The translations under genes were made by a program, and so were the position numbers. Below the pieces are notes generated by a model. That model was not told the DNA's origin. It ran no database searches and saw only the letters and a list, made by a program, of their open reading frames with translations. This document shows positions 1 to 17,158 of a DNA stretch of 42,937 nucleotides, one piece after another. The DNA is from Planctomycetota bacterium (GTDB lineage: Bacteria > Planctomycetota > Planctomycetia > Gemmatales > Gemmataceae): contig JAIOPV010000121.1 in NCBI GenBank assembly GCA_021413735.1, positions 1-42,937 of the forward strand, given 5' to 3'. Positions within the stretch are counted from its first letter, which is position 1. Each line of letters starts with the position of its first letter.

Positions 1-3000
1 CCATACTGACCGCGCGAAATAGCCCGCTTCCCATCTGCCGAGATCCCGACTTGCGCTACCGGATCCGGGTGTTTGGTGAACCGGCTGATTTCTCGCCCCT
101 TGTCTGTGTCCCACACACGCACGATCCGATCCTCTCCGGAATCGCTCGACACGGCACGCTTTCCATCGGGAGTGATCGCAACGTGCTCTACCGACTGTGT
201 GTGCCCGCCGAGTCGGTGAAGTTCCCTGGCGTTCTCCAGATCCCAAATTCGAACAAGATATTCGACAGGCGGTCCGAATAAAGTCGTTCCGAAGACAACC
301 CGTTTCCCGTCTGCTGAAATCGCCACACTGCGGATGTGACCGACATCCTTGATTTGGAAGAGTTGCTTCCCGACTACCGCATCCCAGACAACTCCAAACC
401 CACCCTCATCACAGGAGACGGCTCGCGTCCCGTCAGCGGAGATGGCGACACGGTGAATCGCAGATTTGTGATCAGTCAATCGGTGAAGTTCCTTCCGGGT
501 TTCCGGGTTCCAGATGCGGACGGTCATGTCCTTGCCGCCAGAGATGGCACGTTTGCCATCACCTGAAATACCAAGAGTGTGAATTGTGTCGGTGTGCCCC
601 GCAAGAATGATGGGCTGGCCGGGCACTGTGGGAACTGGCGGGGCCTCTTCAACCTGCACCGCAATATCGAGCGGGTCGTTGATCTCTTCGCCATTACTGC
701 GGGCTTGCAACCTCACGATGACGTTGCAGGCCGGAGCGGACTCGGCGGCAGTGAGTGCAAATCTCACCGCATTCGTGGCACCTGGAATTGGGACAGGTTT
801 CGCTGTCACTCCTGCCGGTAACCCGGTCAAGTGGATTACCAGTGGTTCGGTGCGGCCATTCCGATCGATCTGAACATCGAGTACCTTGGTTTCCCCGGTC
901 TTCAGTGACACGCCGTTTGCGGTCAGTTGAACGGCGATCGGTGTTGGAGTGGGTGTTGGAGCCACGGGTTTCGCCGAATCGACAAACTCCGGGCCATTCC
1001 ACATCCGAACGGTCTTGTCCTCGCTTCCAAAAACAACTCGTTTGCCGTCGGCTGAGATTGCCACGCTCGATACCACATCGGAGTTCCTGTCGAAGCGACC
1101 GATCTCCTTGCCCGTCTCCAGATCCCACATGACGACGTCCTTATCGTGACCGCTGGAGACAACCCGCCTGCCATCCGCCGAAATCGCCACGCCGCGAACC
1201 GTGCTCTCGTGCCCAAACCGTTGGATTTCCTTGCCACTCTCAAGATTCCACGCGGATGTGGTGCTGTCCTGGGCACCCGAGACGGCCCGCTTGCCATCCG
1301 CTGAAATCCCTACTGCACGAATCGCGAATGTGTGTCCGGTGAGCCGTTGGATTTCTTTGCCGGTTTCGAGATTCCACACGAACACTGCCTTCTCTTCACC
1401 CGCGGAGACGGCCCGCTTGCCATCAGCCGAGATCCCCACCGCGTAAACAGTGAGTTGATGTCCCGTGAGTCGCTGCAGTTCCTGGCCCGTCTCCAGATCC
1501 CAGACGAACAAAGCCTTGTCCTGCCCGCCGGAGATCGCTCGCTTACCGTCTGGTGTGATTGAGACGCTCCAAACCGGTTGCGTGGGTCCGGTGAGTCGTC
1601 GAATTTCTTTGCCGGTTTCGAGGTTCCACACAATCACAGCGTTGTCGTAGCCACCGGAGACGGCCCGCTTACCATCGGCCGAGATTCCCACTCCGAACAC
1701 CCAATTCTTGTGGCCTGTGAGCCGTTGGATTTCTTTGCCGGTTTCGAGATTCCACACAATCACGGCATTGTCGTAGCCGCCGGAGATGGCCCGCTTGCCG
1801 TCCGCCGAGATCGCGACGGTCGCCACTTTATCCGTGTGCCCTGTCATCACAAGTTGCTTTGCCAGCGAAGGCGCAGGCGACTTCTCAGAGCTTTTGGTGG
1901 CGACCTTGGGTGGCGATGGGGTCATGGTCGATTGACCACGGTCCGCGGAGCCACCTTGCGCGATGGCGGCAGTTCCAACCCCACTCGATGAACGCGGCGA
2001 GTTCATGACGGCAGCGATGATGCTCGAAATCACGAGGAGAGCACCCAGACCACCTGCAAGAAGCCCAAGTCGTTGAGCATTGGTCAACGACTTCAACCAA
2101 CTCTTGCTGCCATCTGCATCAAGGGGAAGCGGCGCTGGAGTTGTCTTCTTCGCTGGCGTAACTGGTGCTGGCTGTGTACCTGGTCGCGTGACGGACACGG
2201 GCGTCGATTTGCGAGGAACCGGCTTGGGTTCAGACGCCACGGGTTGCGTCGCTGTCATCAATCGCCGAACCTCGGCTTCCTGCAGCCCAGTCAACGCCGG
2301 CGTTTGCTTTCCATCAGGCCCGATGATTTCGTCGAGCAGTGGCACTTTGCGCAACGGCATCCGGCTCGCAAGAATCACCCAGCCCGCCAACGCTCGCACT
2401 TCCGGATCGGGCGAGGACCACAGTTCGCGGAATAACGCCGACCCTGCGGGATTCTTGATGTCCGATTCCTTGAACAGCAGATTGTCGCCGCTGTCGAACC
2501 GGTTCCACAAGGCTCGCCCGCCCGTCGCGAGGCACCGCACTGCGGTATACACCAACAGCAGCGGGAAGCGGTCAATCTCAAGGTGAAAGCGGTCGGCGTT
2601 ACGTCCGGGGTGTTGGTAGTTGGCGTGCCCGATCTCACTTGCGGGGATACCCTCCAGAGCCGGGACATACATCCCGTCGTAGTCGATCAGTTGCGGAATC
2701 ACACCCTTCGCGGACGGCACCAAGATCACGTTGCCGTGCTGCAAGTCACCGTGGGCCATCCCGGCCGCACGGAGGTTCTGACCGAGTTTGTGCCAGATGC
2801 CCGTCAGCTTCGTCAGCACAACGGGATCGTCGGCGTGTTCGCGAACGAACTCGTGCAACAGCTTTCCTTCAACCCAGGTCATTTTCACTGCAGGATATCG
2901 TTCAGGACCGACGCGGATTTCCTCGTCCAAATACTGAAAGTCGACCATGAACCGCAGTCCGCCACTTTCGCGGGCGGCGGAAAGATGATCGCTGATGGCC

Positions 3001-3227
3001 TGATAACGGCGACGCAGCTCGGTCACTTCGCGGGTGAAGCATTTGACGGCCCAGCATTCACCGGTCGGTGTGCGGAGTTGATAGACATCGGCGAAACCGC
3101 CGGAGCGGGCGACCGGCAATCCATGAGCGTTGACCGTTGCTTCTGCGACTTGCAGGCCAGCGTCCTTGAAGGAGTAGGATGGGTCTTGCACCGCCTCGTT
3201 GTAATCGCGTGAACCTGGCCAACGCAT
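1..3227 (-). CDS. Membrane Ser/Thr kinase with WD40 propellers, partial (runs off the left edge)
   Basis: The frame stays open from an ATG at 3225-3227 to base 1, at least 1075 codons. It starts MRWPGSRDYNEAVQDP and is preceded by GGAGG six bases before the ATG. Kinase motifs seen: glycine loop RSGGFADVYQ, lysine in WAVKCF, catalytic loop AHGDLQHGN (HGD for HRD) and LIDYDG in place of DFG. A proline-rich linker and one membrane helix (about residues 387-409, LGLLAGGLGALLVISS) follow. Then come a first WD40 block (about 458-743) with the recurring phrase ISADGKRAVSGG, an Ig-like spacer (about 756-870), and a second WD40 block reaching the window edge. The layout matches the gene at 13294 almost residue for residue up to the spacer, so the two are paralogues. 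The likely role is a cytoplasmic kinase with an extracytoplasmic propeller sensor. Kinase activity is inferred; the missing C-terminus lies outside the window. Confidence 0.9.
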   Translation of the reverse strand, partial: MRWPGSRDYNEAVQDPSYSFKDAGLQVAEATVNAHGLPVARSGGFADVYQLRTPTGECWAVKCFTREVTELRRRYQAISDHLSAARESGGLRFMVDFQYLDEEIRVGPERYPAVKMTWVEGKLLHEFVREHADDPVVLTKLTGIWHKLGQNLRAAGMAHGDLQHGNVILVPSAKGVIPQLIDYDGMYVPALEGIPASEIGHANYQHPGRNADRFHLEIDRFPLLLVYTAVRCLATGGRALWNRFDSGDNLLFKESDIKNPAGSALFRELWSSPDPEVRALAGWVILASRMPLRKVPLLDEIIGPDGKQTPALTGLQEAEVRRLMTATQPVASEPKPVPRKSTPVSVTRPGTQPAPVTPAKKTTPAPLPLDADGSKSWLKSLTNAQRLGLLAGGLGALLVISSIIAAVMNSPRSSSGVGTAAIAQGGSADRGQSTMTPSPPKVATKSSEKSPAPSLAKQLVMTGHTDKVATVAISADGKRAISGGYDNAVIVWNLETGKEIQRLTGHKNWVFGVGISADGKRAVSGGYDNAVIVWNLETGKEIRRLTGPTQPVWSVSITPDGKRAISGGQDKALFVWDLETGQELQRLTGHQLTVYAVGISADGKRAVSAGEEKAVFVWNLETGKEIQRLTGHTFAIRAVGISADGKRAVSGAQDSTTSAWNLESGKEIQRFGHESTVRGVAISADGRRVVSSGHDKDVVMWDLETGKEIGRFDRNSDVVSSVAISADGKRVVFGSEDKTVRMWNGPEFVDSAKPVAPTPTPTPIAVQLTANGVSLKTGETKVLDVQIDRNGRTEPLVIHLTGLPAGVTAKPVPIPGATNAVRFALTAAESAPACNVIVRLQARSNGEEINDPLDIAVQVEEAPPVPTVPGQPIILAGHTDTIHTLGISGDGKRAISGGKDMTVRIWNPETRKELHRLTDHKSAIHRVAISADGTRAVSCDEGGFGVVWDAVVGKQLFQIKDVGHIRSVAISADGKRVVFGTTLFGPPVEYLVRIWDLENARELHRLGGHTQSVEHVAITPDGKRAVSSDSGEDRIVRVWDTDKGREISRFTKHPDPVAQVGISADGKRAISRGQY
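1080..1850 (-). repeat. In-frame 126-bp tandem repeats encoding WD40 blades
   Basis: The WD40-coding DNA repeats every 126 bp (42 codons). The block around 'gccgttggatttc' recurs at about 1216, 1342, 1468, 1594 and 1720, and several copies are nearly identical over long stretches (compare 1340-1440 with 1719-1815). The conserved peptide is GKEIQRLTGH followed by ISADGKRAVSGG. The high DNA identity suggests recent amplification by recombination. Confidence 0.8.
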
Positions 3228-3577: not shown

Positions 3578-5098
3578 ATGGCTCTCCCAGTTGGAATCGA
3601 TCTCGGCACTACCAACTCCGTGATCTCGATTTATCGTCGTGGTCGGCCTGAAACGCTTCGCGTGGAGGGAAGCGAAACGATGCCGTCGGCTGTTTGTTTT
3701 CGAGATAAGGGGAACTCCCTCGTCGGAAACAAAGCACTGAACATGGCGATGATTCGTCCCGAGAGTACGATCCTGTCCGTCAAACGAGACATGGGCAAGG
3801 CTGGCTTCACTTACAACCTTCAGGGACAGTCGTACACACCGATCGACATCTCGGCGATGATCCTCCGGAAGTTGTGCGAAGGGCACGAAGCGGAGGTCGG
3901 GGGGAAGATTACGCAAGCCGTGGTTACGGTTCCCGCGTACTTCACCGACGAGCAGAAACGCGACACGAAACTCGCAGCCGAGAAGGCCGGGTTGGATGTC
4001 CTGCGGTTGCTGCCCGAGCCGACCGCAGCGGCCATTGCCATCGGGCTGAACCGCGGCAAGGACCAAACGATTCTGGTGTACGACCTTGGCGGCGGCACCT
4101 TCGACGTATCGATCCTCGAAGTGCGAGGCAACACGTTCAAGGTCAAGGCGGTGAACGGCGATCACGACCTGGGCGGTAACGACTTCGACCGTGCGTTGCG
4201 AGATCACGCCATCGCGACGTTCAAGACGCAGAAAGGGATCGACCTCAACAAAGAAGACGCAAAAGACGCCCAGGTTCGGCAGGCGTTGCAGGTGCTCACG
4301 TCAGCCTGCGAGCGGATCAAGAAGGAACTATCAGACGCGGAGACGGCACACCTCGATTTGCCGAACTTCTACAAGGGCCAGCATCTCGAAACGGCCATCG
4401 ACCGGGCCACGTTCGAGAGCCTGATCCGGAATCACGTGTATCGCACGAAGGATGTCGTGCTGGCGACCATCAAGGACGCGAAGCTCGACCTCGACGACAT
4501 CGACCAGCTCGTGATGGTTGGCGGATCGACGAAGATTCCTCTCGTGCGGCGAGTTCTGGCGGACACGATTCGCGAGCCGTATGTCGCCGACTATGTGGAC
4601 CTGGCGGTATCGCACGGCGCGGCGATCATGGCTGCGAGTATGCTTGACATCGAGGATGCGGACTCGGCTCCGATGGAGTTGAATGTTCAGGATGTCGTGG
4701 CGCATCCGATTTCGATTGGGCTCGGTGACGAGAACCGCAGACTGCGTTGCTTCGTAGTGATTCCGAAGAATGCCCCGCTTCCCGCGACGGGAATGAAACT
4801 CGGTGCGGCTCCCCCAGGGCAACTCGTTGGTTTACTCCCCATATTTCGCGGTGGGGAAGCGGAGCCGGTGCAAAACAAATTCCTCGGTGACCTCACGCTA
4901 ACCTTCACTCCGAGCCTGAGCCCGACGCTTCTGAGGTTCGAGTTGATGCTCGATAAGAATGGCATCCTTAACGTGGATGGCGCAGAGATCGACCTGAATG
5001 ATGTCTCTCCGTCGGCGCTGCAATATCTCTCCGACGATGACATCGCACGGCTCAAGATCAAGCGCCGGACTCGCGTTGAACTGAAGATGCGGGATTGA
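3578..5098 (+). CDS. Hsp70 family protein (short DnaK-like), first of three
   Basis: A 506-residue Hsp70-like ATPase. The nucleotide-binding domain is complete: phosphate-1 loop GIDLGTTNSVIS near residue 6, ILSVKRDMGK carrying the catalytic lysine, phosphate-2 loop VYDLGGGTFDVS, and adenosine motif MVGGSTKIPLVR. A beta substrate-binding domain follows (about 385-490; LLPIFRGGEAEP, KNGILNVDG). The protein ends there, about 100-130 residues shorter than housekeeping DnaK, so the helical lid appears to be missing. The linker reads VQDVVAHPISIGLG instead of the usual VLLLDVTPLSLG. AAGGTGA lies just before the ATG. It probably acts in the cytoplasm as a specialised chaperone working with the GrpE-like protein at 6976. 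It is not the housekeeping dnaK, given its length and neighbours. Confidence 0.93.
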   Translation: MALPVGIDLGTTNSVISIYRRGRPETLRVEGSETMPSAVCFRDKGNSLVGNKALNMAMIRPESTILSVKRDMGKAGFTYNLQGQSYTPIDISAMILRKLCEGHEAEVGGKITQAVVTVPAYFTDEQKRDTKLAAEKAGLDVLRLLPEPTAAAIAIGLNRGKDQTILVYDLGGGTFDVSILEVRGNTFKVKAVNGDHDLGGNDFDRALRDHAIATFKTQKGIDLNKEDAKDAQVRQALQVLTSACERIKKELSDAETAHLDLPNFYKGQHLETAIDRATFESLIRNHVYRTKDVVLATIKDAKLDLDDIDQLVMVGGSTKIPLVRRVLADTIREPYVADYVDLAVSHGAAIMAASMLDIEDADSAPMELNVQDVVAHPISIGLGDENRRLRCFVVIPKNAPLPATGMKLGAAPPGQLVGLLPIFRGGEAEPVQNKFLGDLTLTFTPSLSPTLLRFELMLDKNGILNVDGAEIDLNDVSPSALQYLSDDDIARLKIKRRTRVELKMRD

Positions 5099-5325: not shown

Positions 5326-6861
5326 ATGTCCGAACTGCAGGAAAAGAATTCTCCGTATGTCGTGGGCATCGACCTGGGCACGTCGACCTCGATCCTGGCG
5401 ATTTACAGGAAGGGTCGGCCCGAGGTGATCCCGATCTCGGGCGAACGGGTCACGCCGTCAGCGGTGAGTTACCGTGCTGACACCGCACCGCTCATCGGCG
5501 TGCAAGCCAAGCGTCGAACGCTCATCGACCCCGAGAATACCGTCGTTTCGATCAAGCGCGAGATCGGCAACGCTTCCTACGATCGGACGGTCTGCGGTCA
5601 GAAGATCACGCCTGAAGCGGTCTCGGCGCTGATCCTCGAACATCTCAAGAACGGTGCGACGGAGCACGTCGAAGGCAACGCCCGCAAGGCGATCATCACC
5701 ATTCCCGCGAACTTCGAGAACAACCAGCGACAGGCGACCCTGGAAGCCGGCCGCCTCGCGGGCCTGGAAGTGCTGCAACTCGTTGAGGAGCCGGTGGCGG
5801 CGGCCGTCGCTTACGGATTCGGCTCCGAGCGCGATCAGACGATTCTCGTGTACGACCTCGGCGGCGGCACGTTCGACGTCTGCATCCTCAAGGTCGATAC
5901 GCAGGCTGGGGGACAGGCGAAGTTCCGCGTCCTCGGCAAAGCGGGGATTCCTAAACTCGGCGGCGACGACTTCGATGATGCCATCATGGCGATTCTCGCG
6001 GCCGAGTTGGTCAAGGCCGGCGGGCCGGATGTTCTCGATCTGAAGAAGGATCAGGGCGTCAGCAAGAAGAAGCTTCGCACAGCCTGCCAGACGCTCAAGG
6101 AGAAGGCTGAGATCGCCAAGATCGAACTGACCGACGCGGAGAAGGTCGCGGTGGACGCACCGAACCTCATCAAGAACGAAAACGGGCAGGAGTTCCACCT
6201 GTCGTGTGAGTTGACACGAGAGCAGTTCAACGCCGCTGTGAAGCCATTGCTTGAGCAGAGCACAGAATGCATCAGGCAGGCACTTGTTGAGGCGAAACTG
6301 ACTGCGGAAGACATTGACCGCATCATCCTCGTTGGCGGGTCCACACGGGTGCCCTGCGTGCGAACGATGGTGACCGAAATGTTCGGCAAGGAACCCTACG
6401 GCGACATCGAACCCGACACTGCGGTTGCTCAAGGTGCCGCGATCATCGGCGCGTCACTTTCTGAAGCGGCGGAGAAGCCGCCGGTCAACTACATCACGAC
6501 AACGAGCCACTTCCTCGGAATCGAAACGGTCGGTCGGCGCTTCAACGAGATCCTGCCGAAGAACTCTGACGTGCCAGCCGAGAACAAGAAGGTTTACGCC
6601 ACGACCTACGACAACATGAAAGAGATTCGGATCTCGATCTTTCAGTTCCCCGAGAAGGTCGAGTTCATCGACTTGAAGGTGCCCGGGAGTGCCTGTCTTG
6701 GAGAGTTCTACCTCGGGCCACTGCGGGAAGCGCCGAAGGGCCAGGTTCACGTCGAGGTAAGGTTTGGGATCGACCAAAACGGGATGCTGACTGTGGCGGC
6801 CCAGGAACTCGGCGCCGCAGGCGGCGGACAGGCCAAGCAGCTTGAGATCCGCGTGTCCTGA
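5326..6861 (+). CDS. Hsp70 family protein, second of three
   Basis: A 511-residue Hsp70-like protein. Seen motifs: VGIDLGTSTSILAIY near residue 13, VVSIKREIGN with the conserved lysine, VYDLGGGTFDVC, and LVGGSTRVPCVR. The beta substrate-binding domain ends with RFGIDQNGMLTVAAQE, and there is no room for the helical lid. The interdomain linker is very divergent (NYITTTSHFLGIET), lacking the aspartate of the DnaK linker needed for J-protein coupling. AGGACC lies about 10 bases before the ATG. It lies downstream of the first Hsp70 in the same direction, across a palindromic element, and upstream of the GrpE-like gene. The three Hsp70s differ strongly from each other in sequence, which argues for distinct roles or hetero-assembly rather than a recent triplication. 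Confidence 0.93.
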   Translation: MSELQEKNSPYVVGIDLGTSTSILAIYRKGRPEVIPISGERVTPSAVSYRADTAPLIGVQAKRRTLIDPENTVVSIKREIGNASYDRTVCGQKITPEAVSALILEHLKNGATEHVEGNARKAIITIPANFENNQRQATLEAGRLAGLEVLQLVEEPVAAAVAYGFGSERDQTILVYDLGGGTFDVCILKVDTQAGGQAKFRVLGKAGIPKLGGDDFDDAIMAILAAELVKAGGPDVLDLKKDQGVSKKKLRTACQTLKEKAEIAKIELTDAEKVAVDAPNLIKNENGQEFHLSCELTREQFNAAVKPLLEQSTECIRQALVEAKLTAEDIDRIILVGGSTRVPCVRTMVTEMFGKEPYGDIEPDTAVAQGAAIIGASLSEAAEKPPVNYITTTSHFLGIETVGRRFNEILPKNSDVPAENKKVYATTYDNMKEIRISIFQFPEKVEFIDLKVPGSACLGEFYLGPLREAPKGQVHVEVRFGIDQNGMLTVAAQELGAAGGGQAKQLEIRVS

Positions 6862-6975: not shown

Positions 6976-8142
6976 ATGGAACCGAACAAGTCGAACGAAC
7001 CGCCCGCGTCTGTTGCGGGCGAGTCGCTTCCGGCCACGTCAGAGGTTGCCCCGCTGGTGGTTGGTGGGCCTGCCGTCGATCCTGTTGCGCCCCCGGCTGA
7101 TCCTCCGGTGGCGGAGCCTGTTACAGAGCCGTCACCGGAGGAACGCGACCAGCTCATTGCGACAGTGGAGGCGGCTCGCGGCAAGTTCCTCGCGCTCTTG
7201 CGTGCCGATGCGAAGCCGAAGTCTCCGGATGTGATGGCAGCGGCCACAGCATACGCAGCAGCACTGAATGAGTCGCAGATACCGCTTGCCGAAGAATGGA
7301 GCCGGTTGCAGTCGGGCGTGGACGCAGAAACGGCAGTCGGTCACACATCTGAGTGCGACAAACTCAGGAACGATGCGGACCGGCTCATCGCGAACTATGC
7401 GGCTCTCTTCGCAGGTCTGCCGGTTCTTGAACAGGCGGTCGTCACGGAACTCGACCGCATGAAAGAAGACGATCCGCCGTTCCTGGCAGCCCCCGCAGAG
7501 ATTCGCGAACCGCTCATCAACTACAAGAAGGGACTTCAGATCATTCAGCGGATGTTCGGGAGATTGCACGCTCGCAAGAAGCCATTGGAAGGTATCGCGC
7601 CGCTGCCACCAGCGCCCACGCTACCCAACGAAGCTCCGTCGGCAACGGAGTTGGCGAACAAGCTCACGGAATTCGGCCACGCGGTGAATGACTGGCGTGT
7701 GGCAGGCAACACCACGCAGCGAGAGATTCGCAAAAAGGTCGATGGGCTTCGCAAAGAGGTCACTGGCTTCGTCTCCGCTCTGCTTGGTCCCATCGACGGA
7801 ATCGAAGGCGGATTGCGGAACGAGCCGGAGTTGCTGGGTCGGTTGGAGTCGTTCCGGAGTGACCACGCGGCGGTGATCGACGGTTGGACTCGGGCATACG
7901 AACGCCTCGATGCGGGGCTGCTTCCGTACTTCGAGGCAACCGGACTGAGTTCGCTGACAGTTGAACCCGGAAGTGCCTTCCGCCCCGAGACAATGGAGCC
8001 GGGTGGCACTGTTGTTCGCCTCGATCGACCGCTTGAGGAAGTCGTTTCGGTGATGCGGCGGGGTTACGCTCTCAACGGCGAGCAACTCCGTCCTGTGCAG
8101 GTCGAAGTTGTGGTTCACACAGCGTCCGAAACACCCGAGTAA
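6976..8142 (+). CDS. Atypical GrpE-like protein (candidate nucleotide exchange factor for the adjacent Hsp70s)
   Basis: 388 residues. The first 55 are rich in Pro, Ala and Val and look disordered. Residues about 55-310 are mostly helical and charged, with no domain I can name. The C-terminus, about 319-380, strongly resembles the GrpE beta-wing: a 'GLSSLTVEPGSAF.P' segment like GrpE's 'GV..I...G..F.P', then VVSVMRRGYALNG and EQLRPVQVEV, matching GrpE's 'V..V...GY.L..R.LRPA.V.V'. GrpE opens the Hsp70 nucleotide pocket with this wing. Canonical GrpE is about 180-200 residues, so this is a long variant with an added N-terminal region. It lies between the second and third Hsp70 genes, which supports the role. 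I read the resemblance by eye; function is inferred. Confidence 0.72.
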   Translation: MEPNKSNEPPASVAGESLPATSEVAPLVVGGPAVDPVAPPADPPVAEPVTEPSPEERDQLIATVEAARGKFLALLRADAKPKSPDVMAAATAYAAALNESQIPLAEEWSRLQSGVDAETAVGHTSECDKLRNDADRLIANYAALFAGLPVLEQAVVTELDRMKEDDPPFLAAPAEIREPLINYKKGLQIIQRMFGRLHARKKPLEGIAPLPPAPTLPNEAPSATELANKLTEFGHAVNDWRVAGNTTQREIRKKVDGLRKEVTGFVSALLGPIDGIEGGLRNEPELLGRLESFRSDHAAVIDGWTRAYERLDAGLLPYFEATGLSSLTVEPGSAFRPETMEPGGTVVRLDRPLEEVVSVMRRGYALNGEQLRPVQVEVVVHTASETPE

Positions 8143-8148
8143 TTGCCC

Positions 8149-9621
8149 ATGCCCGATGACACACTCAATCCGGTTGTTGGTATCGACCTGGGTACCACCT
8201 ACTCATCCATCGCGCGTTGGGACGGCGAACGAATCGACGTCTACCGAATGCACGACGGGCAGGAGTCGATTCCGTCGATCGTCCACATTCAGGACAGCGG
8301 AACGCCGCTCGTGGGCGAGATGGCACGGCCCCGCCTGATGACCGATCCCTCGAACACGGTCGAGAAAGCGAAGCGGTTCATCGGCGACGAAACGAAGGTG
8401 TACACGCTCCGCGGCAAACCATACACGCCTGTCGATATTTCGAGCTTGGTGCTTCAACGCCTCAAGCAGGACGTGGAGAAAAGGTATCCGAAGACAGCGG
8501 GATTCGACATCGCCGGGGCTGTGATTACGCACCCGCACTACTTCAAGTTTCCGCAGATCGCCCGCACACAAGAGGCCGCGGTCAAGGCTGGGTTGCCGGT
8601 CCTGCGGTTGGCGTCGGAACCAGTCGCGGCAGCGCTCGACTACGGCTTCACCAACTACTCGCGCATGGAGAAGACCGGCAGCGAGAAGATTCTCGTCTTC
8701 GACCTTGGTGGCGGCACTTTCGATGTGACGGTGATTGAGGTCATCAATGAAGCCACCAAGCTGACGTTCAAGGTTCTCGCGACCGGCGGCGACGACATGC
8801 TCGGTGGCACGAACTTCGACGAAGCTTTGGCGCAGTGGGCACTCAACGCCCAGGGAATCAAGTTCGACGGATTGAAGCCCGAGGCCAAGAGTCGAGCGGT
8901 TGCCAACCTGATGGAACAGGTCATCAAGACCAAGCGGGAACTGTCGTCGGTTGATTCGTCGTACCTGACGGTGCCGAACATTCTCCCTGGGCAGCACATG
9001 GAGTTGGAGATCACCCGTGCCCAGTTCAACAAGATCCTTGAGCCGTCTTGTGAGCGGATTCGTCGCATCCTGTCCGATACGCTCACGACAGCTCGCCTCC
9101 GCTCTGGTGAACTGAACAAGTCCCTGATGATTGGGGGGTCAAGTTTGATCCCGGTCATGGAGGACATTGTTCGCGAAGAAACCGGGGTGGACCCATGGGC
9201 CGACGCTGACCGCCATCTCGCGGTGTGTCGCGGAGCTGCGTTCCTCGCGGCGATGGATGACGGCCGCGTGACGAAGAAAGAGATTGTCATTGAGGAAGTG
9301 ACGGCTCACGCTCTGGGAGTGCGAGCGGCTGGGAACGTCTTCTCGGTGATGATTCCCGCGAATCGTGCGGCACCAGTGCAGGCCACACGCATCTACACCG
9401 TGAAGAGTTCCAGTTTTGAGGTACAGCCGTTCCAAGGGCACGGCCGCCTCGTGACCGAACCAACTGTCACGGCACTGAAGCCCATTTCGATCACAGGCGT
9501 TCGGCTTGGACCTAATGGCGACGCAGACGTGAAGATCACGTTCTCGGTGAACAATCAGCAAATCCTGTTCGTGAAGATTGAAGCGCCGGGGGTCTCGGAG
9601 CAACGACAGTTGGAGGTGTGA
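8149..9621 (+). CDS. Hsp70 family protein, third of three
   Basis: A 490-residue Hsp70-like protein. I start it at ATG 8149; a TTG at 8143 directly after the upstream stop is in frame but less likely. Motifs: VGIDLGTTYSSIARWDG, VEKAKRFIGDE, VFDLGGGTFDVTVIE, and MIGGSSLIPVMEDIV, where the usual GGST is GGSS. It carries a short insert before phosphate-2 (NYSRMEKTGSEK). The C-terminal beta domain is very divergent and the lid is absent. The linker is IVIEEVTAHALGV. It begins 6 bases after the GrpE-like gene, so the two are almost certainly co-translated and may be a functional pair. Confidence 0.92.
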   Translation: MPDDTLNPVVGIDLGTTYSSIARWDGERIDVYRMHDGQESIPSIVHIQDSGTPLVGEMARPRLMTDPSNTVEKAKRFIGDETKVYTLRGKPYTPVDISSLVLQRLKQDVEKRYPKTAGFDIAGAVITHPHYFKFPQIARTQEAAVKAGLPVLRLASEPVAAALDYGFTNYSRMEKTGSEKILVFDLGGGTFDVTVIEVINEATKLTFKVLATGGDDMLGGTNFDEALAQWALNAQGIKFDGLKPEAKSRAVANLMEQVIKTKRELSSVDSSYLTVPNILPGQHMELEITRAQFNKILEPSCERIRRILSDTLTTARLRSGELNKSLMIGGSSLIPVMEDIVREETGVDPWADADRHLAVCRGAAFLAAMDDGRVTKKEIVIEEVTAHALGVRAAGNVFSVMIPANRAAPVQATRIYTVKSSSFEVQPFQGHGRLVTEPTVTALKPISITGVRLGPNGDADVKITFSVNNQQILFVKIEAPGVSEQRQLEV

Positions 9622-9629
9622 TTGTCTTC

Positions 9630-9759
9630 GCCCTCTCCCCTTGCGGGAGAGGGCAGCGAACGAAGTGAGCGGGTGAGGGGTAAGGCCAACGGAAATGTTA
9701 AGGTCTCACCCCTCACCCGGCTCGAAGACTCGCCACCCTCTCCCGCAAGGGGAGAGGGC
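9630..9759. repeat. Intergenic palindromic element, family A copy 2
   Basis: Arms 9630-9653 and 9736-9759 are perfect 24-base inverted repeats with the core CCCTCTCCCCTTGCGGGAG. The interior contains a second inverted pair (gcgggtgaggggt with acccctcacccg) and 'ctcgaagactcgcc', shared with the element at 5131-5272. Together they suggest one dispersed palindrome family. Confidence 0.82.
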
Positions 9760-9814
9760 AAAAACTACAGCCACCCACCAACACAATTTGGTGTGTCCCG
9801 GAAGCTCGCCAGCC

Positions 9815-11038: not shown

Positions 11039-11479
11039 ATGCCATCTATGTCTGAACTCACCGAAAAAGACCCGTGCCTGAAACGCATCCTCGACAAGCG
11101 AACGGGGCGAAATCTCCTCGAAGATGTTCACCCCCTTGAAGCGAACCCAACTGCGGGCACAAAGGTCACAGTCACCGTGCGAATCGAGAATGGGGCCGAG
11201 GCTCCAATCGAACTGGTCGTCACCACCGACCGCGACTGGCTCAAGCCCAGCCGCGAGAAGCTCTACCTGATGGGCGGTGAGACCGGCGAGTTCGATGCGA
11301 CTGTCACGGCAGCCGGAACGGGCGAGTTCGCCAACCTCTGCTTCGCGTGGAGTGGTGCAACTGAGACCTACCGCGAGTACGTGCTGGTGTGGCGCAAGGG
11401 AAAGAGCGAGCAGCCGGCCGCGGCCAGTCCCAAGAACCCCACCGGTATCACCGCACCACCCGATTGGATGAAACGATAA
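11039..11479 (+). CDS. Small beta-sandwich (Ig-like) protein of unknown function
   Basis: 146 residues with no signal peptide. An ATG at 11048 (MSELTEKDPC) is an equally possible start. The centre alternates hydrophobic strands (TKVTVTVRIENGAEAPIELVV, GGETGEFDATVTAAGTGEF), typical of Ig-like bacterial beta-sandwiches, and resembles the C-terminal domain of the pseudokinase just upstream. The C-terminus is Pro/Lys-rich (PTGITAPPDWMKR). It sits 24 bases after the pseudokinase and about 60 bases before the vWA gene, so it belongs to the array. I do not recognise a named family. A role as a binding partner for the vWA protein is only a guess from position. Confidence 0.75.
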   Translation: MPSMSELTEKDPCLKRILDKRTGRNLLEDVHPLEANPTAGTKVTVTVRIENGAEAPIELVVTTDRDWLKPSREKLYLMGGETGEFDATVTAAGTGEFANLCFAWSGATETYREYVLVWRKGKSEQPAAASPKNPTGITAPPDWMKR

Positions 11480-11539
11480 GTGGCGGTCTCTGACTGCCAC
11501 ATCCCCGACCAATATGCCCAAGTTCTCTCCGGTGCCACC

Positions 11540-12388
11540 ATGCCATACGACGCCGAAATCAGCCGTGCGAATCCGACCTGCGTTCTCTTTTTGTTGGACC
11601 AATCTGGCTCAATGGCTGAACCATTCGGTCAACAGCCGGGGAAGGCCAAGAAGGATGGCGTCGCCGACGTCATCAACAAGTTCCTGTACGACCTCGTAAT
11701 CAAATGCTCCCGCGATGCAGGCATTTACGAGTACCTCCGCGTCGGCGTGATCGGCTACGGCGTCCACGTTCGTTCAGCATTGGGTGGCCCACTCGCAGGC
11801 TCCGTACTCCAGATGATCGGAGCCATCGCGACCAACCCATTACGGGTCGAGCAACGAACACGTCGCGAAGACGACGGTGCCGGTGGCGTGATCGAGCGAA
11901 AGATCAAGTTTCCCGTTTGGGTCGAACCGATGGCCAACGGGAAAACGCCGATGGCTGAGGCGTTGAATCTCGCCTATGAGTCCATTGACGCGTTTATCCG
12001 CGAGAAGCCGGACTGCTTCCCGCCGGTCGTCATCAACATCACGGATGGGATTCCCACAACGGAGCCGAGACCCGCATCCGAAGCCCTTCGTGCTTTGAAA
12101 TCGTCCAATGGGAACGTCTTGCTATTCAATATCCATGTGTCAGACAAACCCGACCGGCCCATTGAGTTTCCCGATGCCGAAACCAACTTGCCGGACAAAT
12201 TCGCCAAGTTGCTGTATCGCTTGTCGAGCACGCTGCCCGCACCGTTCGTGGCCGCAGCCCAGAGCGAAGGATTCCAGGTCTCTCCGCAATCTCGGGGATT
12301 CGTGTTCAACGGCGACCTGGTTTCGGTGGCTCGCTTCATCAGCTTTGGAACCCGAGCTGCACAAGACCGTCCTTCTCCGACCGGATAA
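11540..12388 (+). CDS. vWA domain protein, TerY-like
   Basis: 282 residues from ATG 11540 (MPYDAEISRANPTCVLF). The vWA metal site (MIDAS) is complete: DQSGSM near residue 20, the threonine in GKTPMAEAL, and the aspartate in INITDGIPTTEP. Domain and context match TerY-type vWA proteins, which in many bacteria are encoded next to a PP2C phosphatase and a kinase (the TerY-P triad described for Ter stress systems). Here the PP2C gene starts 4 bases downstream and a kinase follows it. It is probably cytoplasmic, since no signal peptide or membrane segment is present. Likely role: a metal-dependent scaffold or substrate of the kinase/phosphatase pair. Confidence 0.88.
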   Translation: MPYDAEISRANPTCVLFLLDQSGSMAEPFGQQPGKAKKDGVADVINKFLYDLVIKCSRDAGIYEYLRVGVIGYGVHVRSALGGPLAGSVLQMIGAIATNPLRVEQRTRREDDGAGGVIERKIKFPVWVEPMANGKTPMAEALNLAYESIDAFIREKPDCFPPVVINITDGIPTTEPRPASEALRALKSSNGNVLLFNIHVSDKPDRPIEFPDAETNLPDKFAKLLYRLSSTLPAPFVAAAQSEGFQVSPQSRGFVFNGDLVSVARFISFGTRAAQDRPSPTG

Positions 12389-12391
12389 CGC

Positions 12392-13294
12392 ATGACTCCA
12401 GTTCGTATTCGATCGATCGAGTTCTCCATTCCGAAACGTGGAAAGACGGAAGCCGAGAACGACGATCGATACGCCGTCGATCTCGATCAGGCTCGTTTCG
12501 CGATTGCGGACGGAGCGACGGAAAGCTCGTTTTCTGGCCCGTGGGCCGGGTTGCTCGTCCGTCGATTCATGGAAGATACCTCGATCGTGAAAGGGTCGGC
12601 CTGGGGCGAGTGGCTCAGTCCCATTCAGAAGACGTGGCTTGAAAGCGTGGAGAAGCAAGAGATCCCGTGGTACGCGGAAGAGAAGGTGGCTCGCGGAGCG
12701 CATGCTGCTTTTCTGGGTTTGGTGATTCGCTCAGACGGCACATGGCGTGCGATCGCGGTTGGGGATTGTTGCCTGTTCCAGTTCCGCAACAAGCTCCCGC
12801 GGCAATGGTTCCCGTTCCGGCAATTGAACGAGTTCCCACTTCGACCGTGGCTGCTCGGATCACGGAGCAAAGCCAACGAGATCACCGGAACCGATCGCGA
12901 GTTTCTCTCAGACAAGGTGCTCGCCCCGTGGCTGGGAGAGTCTCTGGAGGGGCCCACCAATCCGGACAAGCCACGTCGCCCCGACTGGAAGTATGGAGAC
13001 GAGTTCATCCTCGCGACGGATGCCTTATCGAAATGGTTCGTCAATCAAATTGCGGAACGCTGGGGAACCGTGGACCCTCCTGAGATCCCCATTCCCCGCA
13101 ACGCACAAGAGTTCGTGGACTTCGTGAATGAGCTTCGAGAGAAGAAGGAGATCGAGAGCGACGACGTGACCATGATTCGGGTGACACTGAAGAAGCCAAA
13201 AGAGCCGGCACCACAGCCCGCGGAGGAAGTACTCCCAATGGCTGAAGAAGTACACGTGAGCGAATCCACCGAACCGCGTGTGGAGGGTGAGTGA
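12392..13294 (+). CDS. PP2C-type protein phosphatase
   Basis: 300 residues. PP2C motifs in order: ENDDRYAVD (about 22), FAIADGATESSFSG (about 36), AVGDCCLFQF (about 126), ATDALSKWF (about 210; DA replaces the usual DG), and ESDDVTMIRV (about 252). All metal-binding aspartates expected of a PP2C appear present. A charged, Pro/Glu-rich tail of about 40 residues ends the protein. It begins 4 bases after the vWA stop and its own stop overlaps the kinase ATG by one base (TGATG), so vWA, phosphatase and kinase should be translated together. It most likely dephosphorylates targets of the downstream kinase or the kinase itself. Confidence 0.9.
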   Translation: MTPVRIRSIEFSIPKRGKTEAENDDRYAVDLDQARFAIADGATESSFSGPWAGLLVRRFMEDTSIVKGSAWGEWLSPIQKTWLESVEKQEIPWYAEEKVARGAHAAFLGLVIRSDGTWRAIAVGDCCLFQFRNKLPRQWFPFRQLNEFPLRPWLLGSRSKANEITGTDREFLSDKVLAPWLGESLEGPTNPDKPRRPDWKYGDEFILATDALSKWFVNQIAERWGTVDPPEIPIPRNAQEFVDFVNELREKKEIESDDVTMIRVTLKKPKEPAPQPAEEVLPMAEEVHVSESTEPRVEGE

Positions 13295-16200
13295 TGCGTT
13301 GGCCAAGTTCGCGGGAGTACAACGAGGCGGTTCAAGATCCAGCGTTCTCGTTCAAGGATGCCGACCTTCGCTCCGCCGAGGTGGCTGCCAACGCCCACGG
13401 GTTGCCAGTCGCGCGATCGGGTGGGTTCGCGGATGTGTATCAGTTTCGGTCTGCCGCAGGCGAAAGCTGGGCAGTCAAGTGCTTCACGCGAGAGGTCTCG
13501 GAACTCCACCGCCGATACCAGGCCATCAGCGAACACCTTGCCACGGCTCGCGAAACAAGCTCGCTGCCGTTCATGGTCGAGTTCCAGTACCTCGACGACG
13601 ACATTCGGATCGGTCCAACGCGCTACCCCGTCGTGAAGATGGCGTGGGTTGAAGGCAAGCTCCTCCATGAGTTCGTGCGCGAGCATCTCGACGATTCCAC
13701 ACTGCTGACGAAGCTCGCCGGCATCTGGCACAAGCTCGGTCAGAACCTCCGTGCTGCGGGAATGGCTCACGGTGACTTGCAACATGGCAACGTGATGTTG
13801 GTGCGATCCGGGAAAGGCGTGATTCCCCAGTTGATCGACTATGACGGCATCCATGTCCCCGCACTGGAGGGCACCCCCGCAAGCGAAATCGGACACGCCA
13901 ACTACCAGCACCCCGGCCGCGATGCCGACAGGTTTCATTCCGAGATCGACCGATTCCCGTTGCTGCTGGTGTACACGGCGATTCGTTGTCTCGCGGTCGG
14001 CGGTCGGAGTCTGTGGGATCGCTTCGACAATGGCGACAACCTCCTCTTCAAAGAAGCAGACATCAAGAACCCCGCAAGCTCGGCGTTGTGTCTTGAGCTG
14101 TGGGGAATGGCCGATCCGGCAACTCGTGCGTTGGCTGGCTGGGCGATGCTCGCGAGCCGAATGCCGATTCGCGAAGTCCCTCTGCTCGAAGACCTGATTG
14201 GAGCCGACGGCAAACAAACACCGACTTTGACCTCACAACAAGAAGCCGATGTTCGACGGTTGCTCGGCGTGGCTTCCAAGACCGTTCCAGTTCCTGAACC
14301 CAAAGCAACCACGCGGCCAGCGGCTCCTGTTCCACCCCCAGTTACTCCCATCACGCCGCCACAGCCCCCGAAACGGACCAAAACTCGCCCAACTGCTCCA
14401 AGCCCTGTCCGCGATGACGAAACGGTCATCGCGTCTGTGTCAGCGCTCGCACGCATCCGCAAAATCAAGATACTTGCCGTCGCTGGCAGCGCACTCATCG
14501 CGATTCTCGCCATCGTCGTCTTGATGATGCAGAAGCCGGGCACTCCACCAAAGTTTGATGCGGTGGCGATGAACCCCATAGAGCCTTTTACTGACCAGTC
14601 CGAGGGGACAGCACCGCCGCTGGGTATGGGCCCCCCATCCCAGACGCTGCCCTCATGGAAAGCTGGTCCCGTGCTGAAAGGGCATAAAGGTGAAGTGCGC
14701 AGTGTCGCGGTCTCTGCGAACGGCCAACGAGCCATTTCCGTTGGCAAGGACCAAACGGTGCGTGTCTGGGATCTGAATGCCGGGGTAGGACTGAGTGAGT
14801 ATTCGGACTCAGCCAATCCCTATCTCTGCGTTGCAATTTCTGCCACTGGCAAGCACGGTTGTTTTGGCGCTAGCGACGGAACTGTCCGAGTTTGGGACAT
14901 CGAAAACGGCAGCACTCTCTCGGAAACCAAAGCGCACACTGGCGAGGTCACAGGTGTGTGTTTGGACCCCGCTGCCATGCATGTGATTTCGTGCGGCGCA
15001 GACAAGCGAGCGCGAGTCTGGCATATCCTCAAACGATTTGAGATGAGTTCCGTCAACGCCGATACAGATCCAGCCTTGGGCATCGCCATCTCCCCGTTTT
15101 TGCCTCACTGGCTTGTCGCGGGGAACAAAGACCGGAGCGTTCGCCGCTGGGATATGATTGGTAGGCGGGAACTTCCTCCTCTCGTGGGAAACACCAGCGC
15201 GGTGACGTGTGTGGCGACTTCCACGAATGGAAGCCGGGTTCTCACAGGTTGCGATGATAAGACTGTGCGATTGTGGGATGGGGGATCGGGGAAATTCCTC
15301 TATCAACTTGGGGGCGCAACGGATGTGCCTCGCTGTGTGGCGATGTCGAGCGATGGAAGCCGAGCCGTGACTGGAAGCGTTTCCGGCATTGTGCGCATTT
15401 GGGATACAACCAACGGAAAGGAACTCTCTCGGATTCAGGCGCATAACGGAGAAGTTCACGGTGTGGCAATGTCGTACGACGGACGCCGAGCCATAACTTG
15501 CGGCAAGGATGGAATGATTCGTGTGTGGCTGAGTCCAGAAGCTCCACCCTTGCCTCCGCTCCAACTTTTCGCGAATGACGTGAGCGTGAGCATCAGTGCA
15601 GGTTCCGTGATCGACGTCCGTTTGGAGCGAAATGGCTTTCAAGGCGCACTGACACTGAAAACAACGGGGTTACCCAAGTCAGTGACTGCGAAGACTGTCG
15701 CTGACCTTGGCACTGGCGACACTGCCCAAATCGAAGTGCACGCGGCGGCGGCCGCCGTTCCGGGCGTCACCATCATCCGCCTTCAAGCTGAAAGCGCGGG
15801 TGCAGCCTTGCGCGACGCGTGCGAGATTGCCGTCACGGTTTTGCCCACTGGGACGACGATCACACCACCGCGACTCCTGGTTGTGTCCAGCAAGAAAACT
15901 GGGAATGGCGATGTCTACACCGTTGAACCCGAGACAGGCGAAACGAAAAACCTCACGGACCACAAAGCAGAGGACACCGAACCGGTCTGGTCGCCAGATG
16001 GCAAGAGGATTGCATTCGTCTCTGACCGTGAGGGCACACCAGAGATCTGGGCGATGAACGCAGACGGAACCGATGTGAAACAGATCACGAAAAGCAGTGC
16101 CGTCACGAATCCGCGGTGGTCTCCAGATGGAAGTCGCATTGCGTTTATCGGGAGCAAAGGCGGGAAGGGAAGCGTCTGGACAGTAGAGACAGACACGGGG

Positions 16201-16800
16201 AAGTTGACTCAGTTGTCGTTCCACGCCCAACCGAGCAGACAGCCTGAGTGGTCACCGGATGGGAAACGAATCGCGTACGCGAACTACAGAGCCTCCGATA
16301 GCCGATGGTGCCCTTATGTGGTGCCTGCGGGCGGTGGCACATATCAGAGCTTGGCAACCACCTACGGCGGTCAGGACATGGCGTGGTCGCCGGGGGGTTC
16401 GTCTATCGCGTTCACTGATGTTCGCGATCAACCCGGCTGGCGACTCTTCATGATGAATGCGGACGGGAAGAATGTTCGGACTGTGAACAAGACAGGCAAC
16501 ACTTATGGGAACGTCTATCCGCAGTGGTCGCCCGATGGGAGGCGGCTCGCATACGGAGAGATGGTGGACGGGTTTGTGCAAGTGGGTGTCATCAAGTTCG
16601 ACGGCACCGGGGGCAAAGTTGTGACGTCGAAATTCCAGCACATGCTCGCTCGCTGGTCGCCCGATGGTAAGTCGCTGAGTTACTGCCGCTTCGAGAAGGA
16701 CAAGCCAACAGTGTTGATCGTGAGCGACGCCGACGGTCAGAATCCCAAAGAGCTGCTCAGTGATATCGGTGCCGCCACCGCGGAGTGGCAACCGAAGTAA
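13294..16800 (+). CDS. Membrane Ser/Thr kinase with WD40 and TolB-like propellers
   Basis: 1168 residues, start ATG 13294 with GGAGGGTGA just upstream. Kinase: RSGGFADVYQ (41-50), Lys62 in WAVKCF, AHGDLQHGN with HGD at 159-161, DYDG at 182-185. A Pro-rich linker with PPPVTPITPPQPPKRTK follows, then one membrane helix at about 390-413 (ILAVAGSALIAILAIVVLMM). Outside lie WD40 repeats (about 460-746; GHKGEVRSVAVSANGQRAIS), an Ig-like domain (about 753-850), and a TolB/PD40 propeller (about 858-1168) with repeated WSPDGKRIAF. It is paralogous to the leftward gene at 1-3227, but that gene shows WD40 after the spacer where this one has TolB repeats. Likely a transmembrane sensor kinase partnered with the PP2C and vWA proteins. 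Confidence 0.93.
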   Translation: MRWPSSREYNEAVQDPAFSFKDADLRSAEVAANAHGLPVARSGGFADVYQFRSAAGESWAVKCFTREVSELHRRYQAISEHLATARETSSLPFMVEFQYLDDDIRIGPTRYPVVKMAWVEGKLLHEFVREHLDDSTLLTKLAGIWHKLGQNLRAAGMAHGDLQHGNVMLVRSGKGVIPQLIDYDGIHVPALEGTPASEIGHANYQHPGRDADRFHSEIDRFPLLLVYTAIRCLAVGGRSLWDRFDNGDNLLFKEADIKNPASSALCLELWGMADPATRALAGWAMLASRMPIREVPLLEDLIGADGKQTPTLTSQQEADVRRLLGVASKTVPVPEPKATTRPAAPVPPPVTPITPPQPPKRTKTRPTAPSPVRDDETVIASVSALARIRKIKILAVAGSALIAILAIVVLMMQKPGTPPKFDAVAMNPIEPFTDQSEGTAPPLGMGPPSQTLPSWKAGPVLKGHKGEVRSVAVSANGQRAISVGKDQTVRVWDLNAGVGLSEYSDSANPYLCVAISATGKHGCFGASDGTVRVWDIENGSTLSETKAHTGEVTGVCLDPAAMHVISCGADKRARVWHILKRFEMSSVNADTDPALGIAISPFLPHWLVAGNKDRSVRRWDMIGRRELPPLVGNTSAVTCVATSTNGSRVLTGCDDKTVRLWDGGSGKFLYQLGGATDVPRCVAMSSDGSRAVTGSVSGIVRIWDTTNGKELSRIQAHNGEVHGVAMSYDGRRAITCGKDGMIRVWLSPEAPPLPPLQLFANDVSVSISAGSVIDVRLERNGFQGALTLKTTGLPKSVTAKTVADLGTGDTAQIEVHAAAAAVPGVTIIRLQAESAGAALRDACEIAVTVLPTGTTITPPRLLVVSSKKTGNGDVYTVEPETGETKNLTDHKAEDTEPVWSPDGKRIAFVSDREGTPEIWAMNADGTDVKQITKSSAVTNPRWSPDGSRIAFIGSKGGKGSVWTVETDTGKLTQLSFHAQPSRQPEWSPDGKRIAYANYRASDSRWCPYVVPAGGGTYQSLATTYGGQDMAWSPGGSSIAFTDVRDQPGWRLFMMNADGKNVRTVNKTGNTYGNVYPQWSPDGRRLAYGEMVDGFVQVGVIKFDGTGGKVVTSKFQHMLARWSPDGKSLSYCRFEKDKPTVLIVSDADGQNPKELLSDIGAATAEWQPK

Positions 16801-16991: not shown

Positions 16992-17122
16992 ACGTGGGGT
17001 GGGTAACTCGCCCGGAATCAATGAGAAGCCTTCCAACCACTTGACTTGCGCATTCTGTTCATCTCGGAATCGAATGGCGAAACCCCAGGCTGAATAGCAT
17101 GGTGTTGTCACTTCGCTCGATT

Positions 17123-17128
17123 TACAAT
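17123..17128 (+). promoter_or_regulatory. Possible -10 box TACAAT before the sigma factor gene
   Basis: TACAAT lies 30 bases before the preferred start at 17159. No good -35 is found at 16-18 bp upstream, so this is weak. If real, the upstream ATG at 17099 cannot be the start on that transcript. Confidence 0.25.
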
Positions 17129-17158
17129 CAACTCAATTCCTCCGCAACAAGGTCGGCC

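Follow-up and report, generated by a model that had tools for sequence, protein, structure and literature searches.

GrpL, as we call a 388-residue protein encoded at positions 6976–8142 of a 42,937-nucleotide stretch of planctomycete DNA (Gemmataceae; GenBank assembly GCA_021413735.1, contig JAIOPV010000121.1, positions 1–42,937; hereafter the window), is, by its sequence and predicted structure, a genuine but divergent and enlarged GrpE. Its gene lies between genes for three Hsp70 proteins, HspA and HspB upstream and HspC downstream. With moderate confidence, we lean toward the reading that GrpL is a GrpE-type nucleotide exchange factor (NEF) dedicated to the Hsp70s encoded around it, of which it would probably serve one or two. 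Bacterial GrpE, which recharges Hsp70 with ATP, is commonly regarded as a single general factor of the cell. If this reading is true, the locus would allow one to ask which benefit an Hsp70 draws from a NEF of its own, and by what means Hsp70s function in the absence of a lid, a J-protein or, in part, a NEF.

GrpL and its likeness to GrpE

The reading frame of GrpL extends from an ATG at 6976 to a TAA stop at 8140–8142 and can be divided as follows.

6976–8142, plus strand: GrpL, extended GrpE-like protein of 388 residues, recognised from its open reading frame (ORF), Pfam match and motifs
6976–7134, plus strand: GrpL residues 1–53, Pro/Ala-rich tail, probably disordered (no secondary structure before residue 54 in the model)
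7135–7572, plus strand: GrpL residues 54–199, helical extension with four helices, block averages of the predicted local distance difference test (pLDDT) of 46–85, and no credible relatives
7642–7938, plus strand: GrpL residues 223–321, GrpE long helix and four-helix-bundle helix (helices 19–78 and 80–117 in the numbering of the core model)
7945–8112, plus strand: GrpL residues 324–379, GrpE beta-wing with six strands; the Pfam match ends at residue 379

A Pfam-A scan of GrpL returned a single family, GrpE (PF01025), over residues 245–379 with 38.0 bits and an E-value of 1.7e-9; in a six-frame search of the genome the score was 39.4 bits, and both values lie above the family cut-off of 25.8 bits. 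Three GrpE profiles were built, from the canonical GrpEs of the family Gemmataceae, from 41 long GrpEs described below, and from 39 GrpEs of the family and the phylum, and against these GrpL scored 13.8, 29.1, and 31.5 bits, respectively. Shuffling the whole protein 5,000 times and its C-terminal part another 5,000 times gave best scores of 6.9, 11.7, and 6.2 bits in the same order, so that none of the 10,000 shuffles reached the scores of GrpL. A sequence-only reading of this DNA had proposed a GrpE beta-wing in the last 60 residues of the protein. The motifs it named (F.P, GTVV, RRGYALNG, and LRPVQVEV) are present, its coordinates and frame are correct, and the wing is borne out by the Pfam match, the shuffle control, and the predicted topology of the core. 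The likeness also extends beyond those residues to the whole GrpE core, helices included. As to the double length it had remarked on, GrpL is 2.3 times as long as the canonical GrpE of the same genome (169 residues from its first ATG).

The full-length AlphaFold2 model, computed from a 30-row alignment, has a mean pLDDT of 69.8. It displays no regular structure before residue 54, followed by helices at 54–77, 84–121, 124–165, 174–199, 223–242, 245–270, 276–279 (a short one), and 284–321 and by six strands within 324–379; the blocks covering residues 321–380 reach pLDDT values of 90–97. Low confidence is found at residues 11–34 (below 50) and in the blocks of residues 71–130, which average 46–64. 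When the core was modelled alone (residues 205–388), the mean pLDDT was 84.0 and the helices spanned 223–282 (60 residues) and 284–321, with the six strands in the same place. Foldseek comparison of this core with the PDB placed GrpE structures at ranks 1–12, with E-values of 7e-7 to 9e-3, and the next match at 1.1. VIA-align, run with the core on 265 chains picked by Foldseek, gave Z-scores of 10.3 with human GrpEL1 (9bls_C; 159 residues aligned, root-mean-square deviation 5.2) and 9.6 with E. coli GrpE (1dkg_B; 149 residues, 6.0), the first row other than GrpE having a Z of 4.3. Comparison of the predicted model with GrpE, which had been suggested as a check, thus finds a GrpE-like wing in place. 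The N-terminus that had been called disordered looks so over residues 1–53 of the model. As for the "novel helical part", residues 54–199 are predicted to be helical and have no detected relatives, but we make no claim that their fold is new.

In the model, GrpL would share the long helix, the bundle helix, and the C-terminal beta-wing with canonical GrpE (PF01025; E. coli 1DKG, Geobacillus 4ANI, human GrpEL1 9BLS). It differs in its length, about 170–200 residues in canonical GrpE versus 388 with the extra helical part and, as aligned, a four-residue insertion, and in being encoded between Hsp70 genes. We compared GrpL at 23 positions that do not vary among 31 canonical GrpEs of the family (E. 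coli numbering). Twelve are kept (71, 75, 96, D100, G122, G138, F149, 173, G177, R186, P187, and V190); E. coli GrpE itself keeps 16. The residue aligned with E. coli G122 is G303, which is probably important because a G122D substitution has been reported to inactivate GrpE (PMC10825016); in a gapless alternative alignment, A307 takes this place instead. In the Mycobacterium tuberculosis complex, the basic long helix of GrpE is described as contacting both DnaK domains (PMC10803776), and a basic stretch can be seen by eye in the long helix of GrpL also.

The Hsp70s of the locus and their determinants of GrpE dependence

The Hsp70 block comprises the following genes and intergenic elements besides GrpL.

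3578–5098, plus strand: HspA, lidless Hsp70 of 506 residues with a short GrpE hairpin; Pfam HSP70, 354.7 bits
5131–5272, no strand: palindromic element between HspA and HspB (inverted repeat I5, 27-nucleotide arms, 96%)
5326–6861, plus strand: HspB, lidless Hsp70 of 511 residues with a full hairpin and both cleft salt bridges; Pfam HSP70, 393.2 bits
6870–6942, no strand: inverted repeat between HspB and GrpL (I4, perfect 28-nucleotide arms, 100%)
8149–9621, plus strand: HspC, lidless divergent Hsp70; Pfam HSP70, 302 bits; TTG at 8143 is an alternative start
9624–9765, no strand: palindromic element between HspC and the kinase gene that follows (I3, 36-nucleotide arms, 89%)

The ATPase residues D8, K70, E171, D194, and T199 are kept in HspA, HspB, and HspC, as is the beta part of the substrate domain. 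Past E. coli position 507, HspA has 15 residues and HspB and HspC have none, and the lid is therefore absent in all three.

Published work on DnaK offers a means of judging which of these proteins might require GrpE. The GrpE-signature motif is reported to lie at DnaK residues 290–295, together with salt bridges K55–E267 and R56–E264, and HscA, described as having neither the signature nor these salt bridges, to release ADP fast and unaided (Mayer 2021, PMC8215388). The hairpin formed by DnaK residues 276–302 is described as lying against the GrpE helices (PMC10825016). Between the equivalents of S274 and R302, HspB has 28 residues and HspA and HspC have 23 each; the corresponding number is 27 in E. 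coli DnaK and 17 and 21 in HscA and HscC, which served as negative controls. At positions 55/56/264/267, HspB has K/R/E/E, HspA L/N/S/E, and HspC R/P/E/I. The DnaK-type combination of a full hairpin and both salt bridges is thus found in HspB and is absent from HspA and HspC. Judged by these residues, HspB looks GrpE-dependent, and HspA and HspC resemble Hsp70s that release ADP unaided. With such a split within one locus, the published criteria for GrpE dependence could be put to a natural test. Among related loci (Hsp70 ORFs longer than 350 residues and above 150 bits, in loci L061–L100 and L109–L120 only), the hairpin measured 27 residues in 36 of 39 family Hsp70s from loci with a GrpE-like gene, the three exceptions having 25, 23, and, about 5 kb from the GrpE-like gene, 42 residues.

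A tree of 25 Hsp70 rows joined HspA to the Hsp70 of a congener, G019 (98/96), and left the placement of HspB and HspC unsettled on long branches, that of HspC being the longest. HspB is 42.4% identical to the G019 protein versus 43.1% to E. coli DnaK. Tree and identities together therefore neither show nor exclude a tandem duplication of the three Hsp70s. Other Hsp70 matches in the genome lie on contigs C208, C121, C75, C147, C2, C263, and C233; the parts on C263 and C233 are complementary and probably belong to one dnaK split between contigs.

A proposed dedicated exchange factor and competing explanations

The ATG of HspC (8149) lies six bases past the GrpL stop, so that these two genes abut, and palindromic elements stand between the remaining genes of the Hsp70 block. 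By this arrangement, HspC is likely the co-expressed partner of GrpL. Scans for promoters and terminators gave no more matches than in shuffled sequences. The palindromic elements may be mobile palindromes or transcript-end signals.

The genome contains two GrpE matches, GrpL and a canonical GrpE on contig C275 that adjoins a dnaJ-like gene (identified by eye). With a separate canonical GrpE elsewhere, the GrpL copy would therefore be free to specialise. When full-length GrpL was searched against 102 genomes of the order, 16 matched, including its own; among 392 genomes of the phylum, 11 matched, its own included, in a shallow search that scored the best four candidates per genome; and collections of genome contigs and plasmids gave no match. 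Every match outside its own genome lies at or beyond residue 185, except one in G106 (residues 108–242), and several are ordinary GrpEs. The G106 match contains three internal stops and was treated as noise, as was a match in G335 (residues 199–247).

Other Gemmataceae carry a trio of genes for a J-like protein of about 98 residues, a long GrpE, and a full-length Hsp70 (class A loci L061–L089 and L109–L120; examples are L226:5705–8697 and L203:5771–8786). The long GrpEs are open frames of 201–675 residues, mostly 237–400. The J-like gene lies upstream on the same strand in 38 of the 41 long-GrpE loci, and the Hsp70 gene directly downstream in at least 34 of the 41. At the place of the HPD motif, as aligned, the J-like proteins have HPD in 6 of 39 cases and HPE in 18; Pfam DnaJ gave 36.4 and 39.9 bits for two of them, the cut-off being 27.8. 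GrpL resembles the trio in that a long GrpE adjoins an Hsp70. It shows no special kinship with it, scoring 29.1 bits with the trio profile versus 31.5 with the 39 other GrpEs, and differs in its N-terminal half, for which no relation can be recognised, and in the missing lid of the window Hsp70s.

Two further sets of GrpE-like genes were seen in the family. In G020, of the same genus, a GrpE-like ORF lies beside an Hsp70 gene in an arrangement unlike the trio (contig C116, L244:3–3139), and the hairpin of that Hsp70 is short. Several Gemmataceae also have a divergent GrpE-like class of about 200–270 residues (L091–L097, L099, L100, and L077:14397–15104), two members of which adjoin an Hsp70 gene (L092 and L093); elsewhere none was recognised close by.

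A dedicated exchange factor, as the sequence-only reading had supposed, is favoured by the predicted GrpE fold, the position among Hsp70 genes, the separate canonical GrpE, and the precedent in the family, and we regard it as the best reading. Its further supposition, that the factor serves all of these Hsp70s, holds less well: HspB, with its full hairpin and both salt bridges, fits, but HspA and HspC do not have them, yet HspC is the gene most tightly coupled to GrpL. In the mechanism we envisage, GrpL would use its C-terminal half, with the long helix, the bundle helix, and the beta-wing, to engage an Hsp70 at its nucleotide-binding domain (NBD) in the ADP state and swing subdomain IIB open, whereupon ADP would be released. 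The helical and disordered N-terminal half may tether or gate the exchange, perhaps by meeting the substrate-binding domain (SBD) of the Hsp70, a client, or the neighbouring kinase module. HspB would likely be a classical client by sequence and HspC a likely co-expressed partner; HspA, and perhaps HspC, would probably exchange nucleotide without classical GrpE help. The exchange activity of GrpL, its dimerisation, its choice of partner, the role of its N-terminal half, and any control by phosphorylation are what we infer.

Several observations weigh against a GrpE-type factor devoted to its neighbours. Four NCBIfam GrpE equivalog models match GrpL at 17.0–23.4 bits versus cut-offs of 152–200, the best being 23.4 versus 200, which places GrpL outside the canonical equivalog. 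With the single GrpL sequence, phmmer retrieved none of the GrpE structures of the PDB at E ≤ 1 (its lone weak match there, an anti-CRISPR protein at E 0.022, was taken as chance). The Foldseek TM-scores by target are modest (0.32–0.60 for ranks 1–12). Eleven of the 23 invariant positions are lost, namely 67, 74, 101, 102 (to I), 104, 108, 123, 154, 156, 183, and 188, and in the MAFFT and hhalign alignments alike GrpL is four residues longer in the segment from G122 to G138. For the N-terminal half, no relative was found in the order, phylum, genome-contig, or plasmid searches. The markers of GrpE dependence are also imperfect: the 23-residue exception among the family hairpins is the G020 Hsp70, which adjoins a GrpE-like gene, and the GrpE-paired Hsp70s of the family have lost the upper salt-bridge pair (R56 is replaced by N in the trio) and kept K/R55 and E267, so that it is the lower pair, together with the hairpin, that distinguishes HspA and HspC. 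The evidence on partners conflicts, pointing to HspB by hairpin and to HspC by gene coupling. DnaK residues R167, N170, and T173, which we take to be part of the J-domain site, are all missing from HspB; HspA and HspC keep R167 and have lost N170. No J-domain was recognised in the window by family scans (31 frames, some perhaps not genes, with the two WD40 proteins represented by their best 25 families), by phmmer with two trio J-like proteins, or by a pattern that was insensitive, having also missed the trio J-like genes that inspection and phmmer later revealed; the gene upstream of GrpL is HspB and not a J-like gene. With the J-site residues lost from HspB and no J-domain recognised in the window, the cycle would lack its usual trigger.

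GrpL could alternatively be a paralogous NEF that acts on the housekeeping DnaK and further Hsp70s of the cell as well, its position reflecting duplication and drift and not a private cycle. That two of the three neighbouring Hsp70s have no GrpE signature, and that the DnaK fragment on C263 has a full hairpin, would suit this explanation. We nevertheless consider it unlikely, since the genome has a canonical GrpE gene adjoining a dnaJ-like one, the long GrpEs of the family directly precede an Hsp70 gene in at least 34 of 41 loci, and GrpL abuts HspC.

To about the same low degree, we entertain a scaffold devoid of exchange activity, in which the wing binds an Hsp70 and the N-terminal helices lie against the bundle helix, prevent dimerisation, and hold a client or kinase. 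In its favour, the full-length model matches helical bundles of STAT and syntaxin through helices 79–321 with Z-scores of up to 11.7 versus 9.4 with GrpE, invariant positions have been lost as listed above, and GrpE has been reported to be active only as a dimer (PMC10825016). However, much of this region is modelled with low or moderate confidence and has no known relative aligned to it, helical bundles reach such Z-scores by chance, and the core-only model strongly matches GrpE alone. We do not read these matches as kinship with STAT or syntaxin, since they rest on N-terminal helices of which a part is poorly predicted.

Least likely of all, GrpL might serve HspA, HspB, and HspC alike by means of a co-adapted interface, in which a bundle helix about one turn longer fits the four-residue-shorter hairpins of HspA and HspC (23 residues versus 27), an idea that suits the four-residue insertion, the coupling of HspC, and the reported contact of the hairpin with those GrpE helices (PMC10825016), but the long hairpin is kept in HspB, the insertion rests on the alignment of a single sequence in which A307 could fill the G122 place gaplessly, and HspA and HspC also have no lower cleft salt bridge.

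The kinase/phosphatase neighbourhood and comparison with known systems

The genes around the Hsp70 block are listed here.

3–3227, minus strand: STK_OB-like kinase with WD40 repeats (WD40 in Pfam), a 1075-residue frame open at the contig edge
9815–11014, plus strand: Ser/Thr kinase with a C-terminal extension; Pfam Pkinase, 94.2 bits; the ORF begins at 9695, the ATG at 9815 being the likelier start
11039–11479, plus strand: 146-residue protein without a family (no match in Pfam, NCBIfam, or PADLOC)
11480–12388, plus strand: TerY (vWA); PADLOC TerY, 307.8 bits
12392–13294, plus strand: PP2C-like phosphatase; PADLOC PP2C, 111.3 bits
13291–16800, plus strand: STK_OB-type kinase fused to WD40 and TolB-like propellers; PADLOC STK_OB, 251.7 bits, model positions 1–309 of 562
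17099–17752, plus strand: ECF sigma factor, with relatives beside the HspA-like Hsp70 of G019
17749–19164, plus strand: zinc-ribbon FGE-sulfatase-domain protein, with relatives beside the HspA-like Hsp70 of G019

The Hsp70 block is flanked by two related kinase–WD40 genes: the 970-nucleotide start region of the gene at 3–3227 has an inverted match of 75% identity to 13293–14262. The former gene diverges from the block and is absent from the ORF list since it runs off the contig edge; an ORF on the opposite strand (2583–3212, plus) is its antisense shadow and was dropped. Adjacent genes for TerY, PP2C, and a serine/threonine kinase (STK), which define the TerY-P triad, are present. The OB part of the STK_OB model is unmatched in the 13291–16800 kinase, which continues with WD40 and TolB-like repeats. 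The 146-residue protein encoded between the kinase and TerY genes looks by eye like an Ig-like beta protein.

The greater interest of the locus lies in this setting and in its mixed determinants of GrpE dependence. The sequence-only reading makes no mention of the TerY-P genes or of the kinase–WD40 gene at the contig edge. From its genes, the locus suggests a private, signal-linked chaperone cycle. A fuller version of this idea, which we put forward tentatively and as doubtful, is an Hsp70 relay that is self-contained and under phosphorylation control. In it, three lidless Hsp70s, one needing a NEF and two fast and NEF-independent, would work with a private NEF whose unique helical half is a point of control or client docking, and the TerY-P and WD40-kinase genes would provide a switch, possibly in stress or phage defence, with no J-domain protein.

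GAP1-N2 GTPase systems are reported to include Hsp70 and GrpE, some of the Hsp70s being truncated, and others of these systems to include a kinase, PP2C, and vWA, with FGS effectors in planctomycetes (Kaur et al. 2020, PMC7159879). The window shares the Hsp70 and GrpE genes, the kinase/PP2C/vWA theme, and an FGE-sulfatase-domain protein, to be compared with FGS, but it differs in that the kinase triad and Hsp70/GrpE occur together and in that its Hsp70s retain the beta portion of the substrate domain. The matches listed for the 31 window frames, which for the two WD40 proteins were the best 25 families, include no GTPase, FNIII, or DnaJ family; no GAP1-N2 model was scanned, and the contig ends upstream.

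In Type II and III-A CoCoNuT systems, an Hsp70-like protein (NBD/SBD) is reported at one locus with TerY-P, the Hsp70 homologues being described as likely very poor ATPases (PMC11090510). The window shares the Hsp70-like and TerY-P components and differs in its Hsp70 ATPase residues and the presence of a GrpE. Among the matches listed for the same frames there was no McrB or McrC family, although a gene past the contig edge would escape such a scan. Antiphage activity of TerY-P-like modules was reportedly described by Gao et al. 2020, as cited in the CoCoNuT paper. The TerY-P triad comprises TerY, PP2C, and an STK with an OB fold or zinc ribbon, whereas the window kinase is fused to WD40/TolB propellers.

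Myxococcus xanthus is described as having a second GrpE, GrpS (Mxan_6672), consecutive to a DnaK paralogue, MXAN_6671 (PMC10313047, PMC11019930). An additional GrpE at an additional Hsp70 locus is thus common to both cases, but the M. xanthus paralogue is described with an SBD-alpha, unlike the lidless window Hsp70s, and the available portions of these papers mention no kinase triad. Among the papers listed in our literature searches there was none on an extended GrpE between planctomycete Hsp70 genes, which does not prove that none exists.

TerY matches occur in 49 of the 102 order genomes, weak ones included, and in 4 of the 392 phylum genomes at E ≤ 1e-30, its own included. We examined 40 TerY stretches, mostly the best-scoring ones of the order, and three more; several end at contig ends. 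A recognisable Hsp70 was present in none of these 43 other stretches. A 4.6-kb contig of the congener G019, on the other hand, encodes the Hsp70 closest to HspA (46% identity over query residues 4–468 and 51% in the NBD), which is the only match in the order outside the genome of GrpL under the E-value limits for HspA, HspB, and HspC. Its neighbours are a WD40 fragment and relatives of the ECF and FGE-sulfatase genes of the window. An HspA-type Hsp70 is thus linked to such a locus in two genomes, and GrpL in one. In the G019 protein (contig C327, L240:1584–3935), about 240 residues follow the Pfam HSP70 match in the place of the lid, and no Pfam family is found there.

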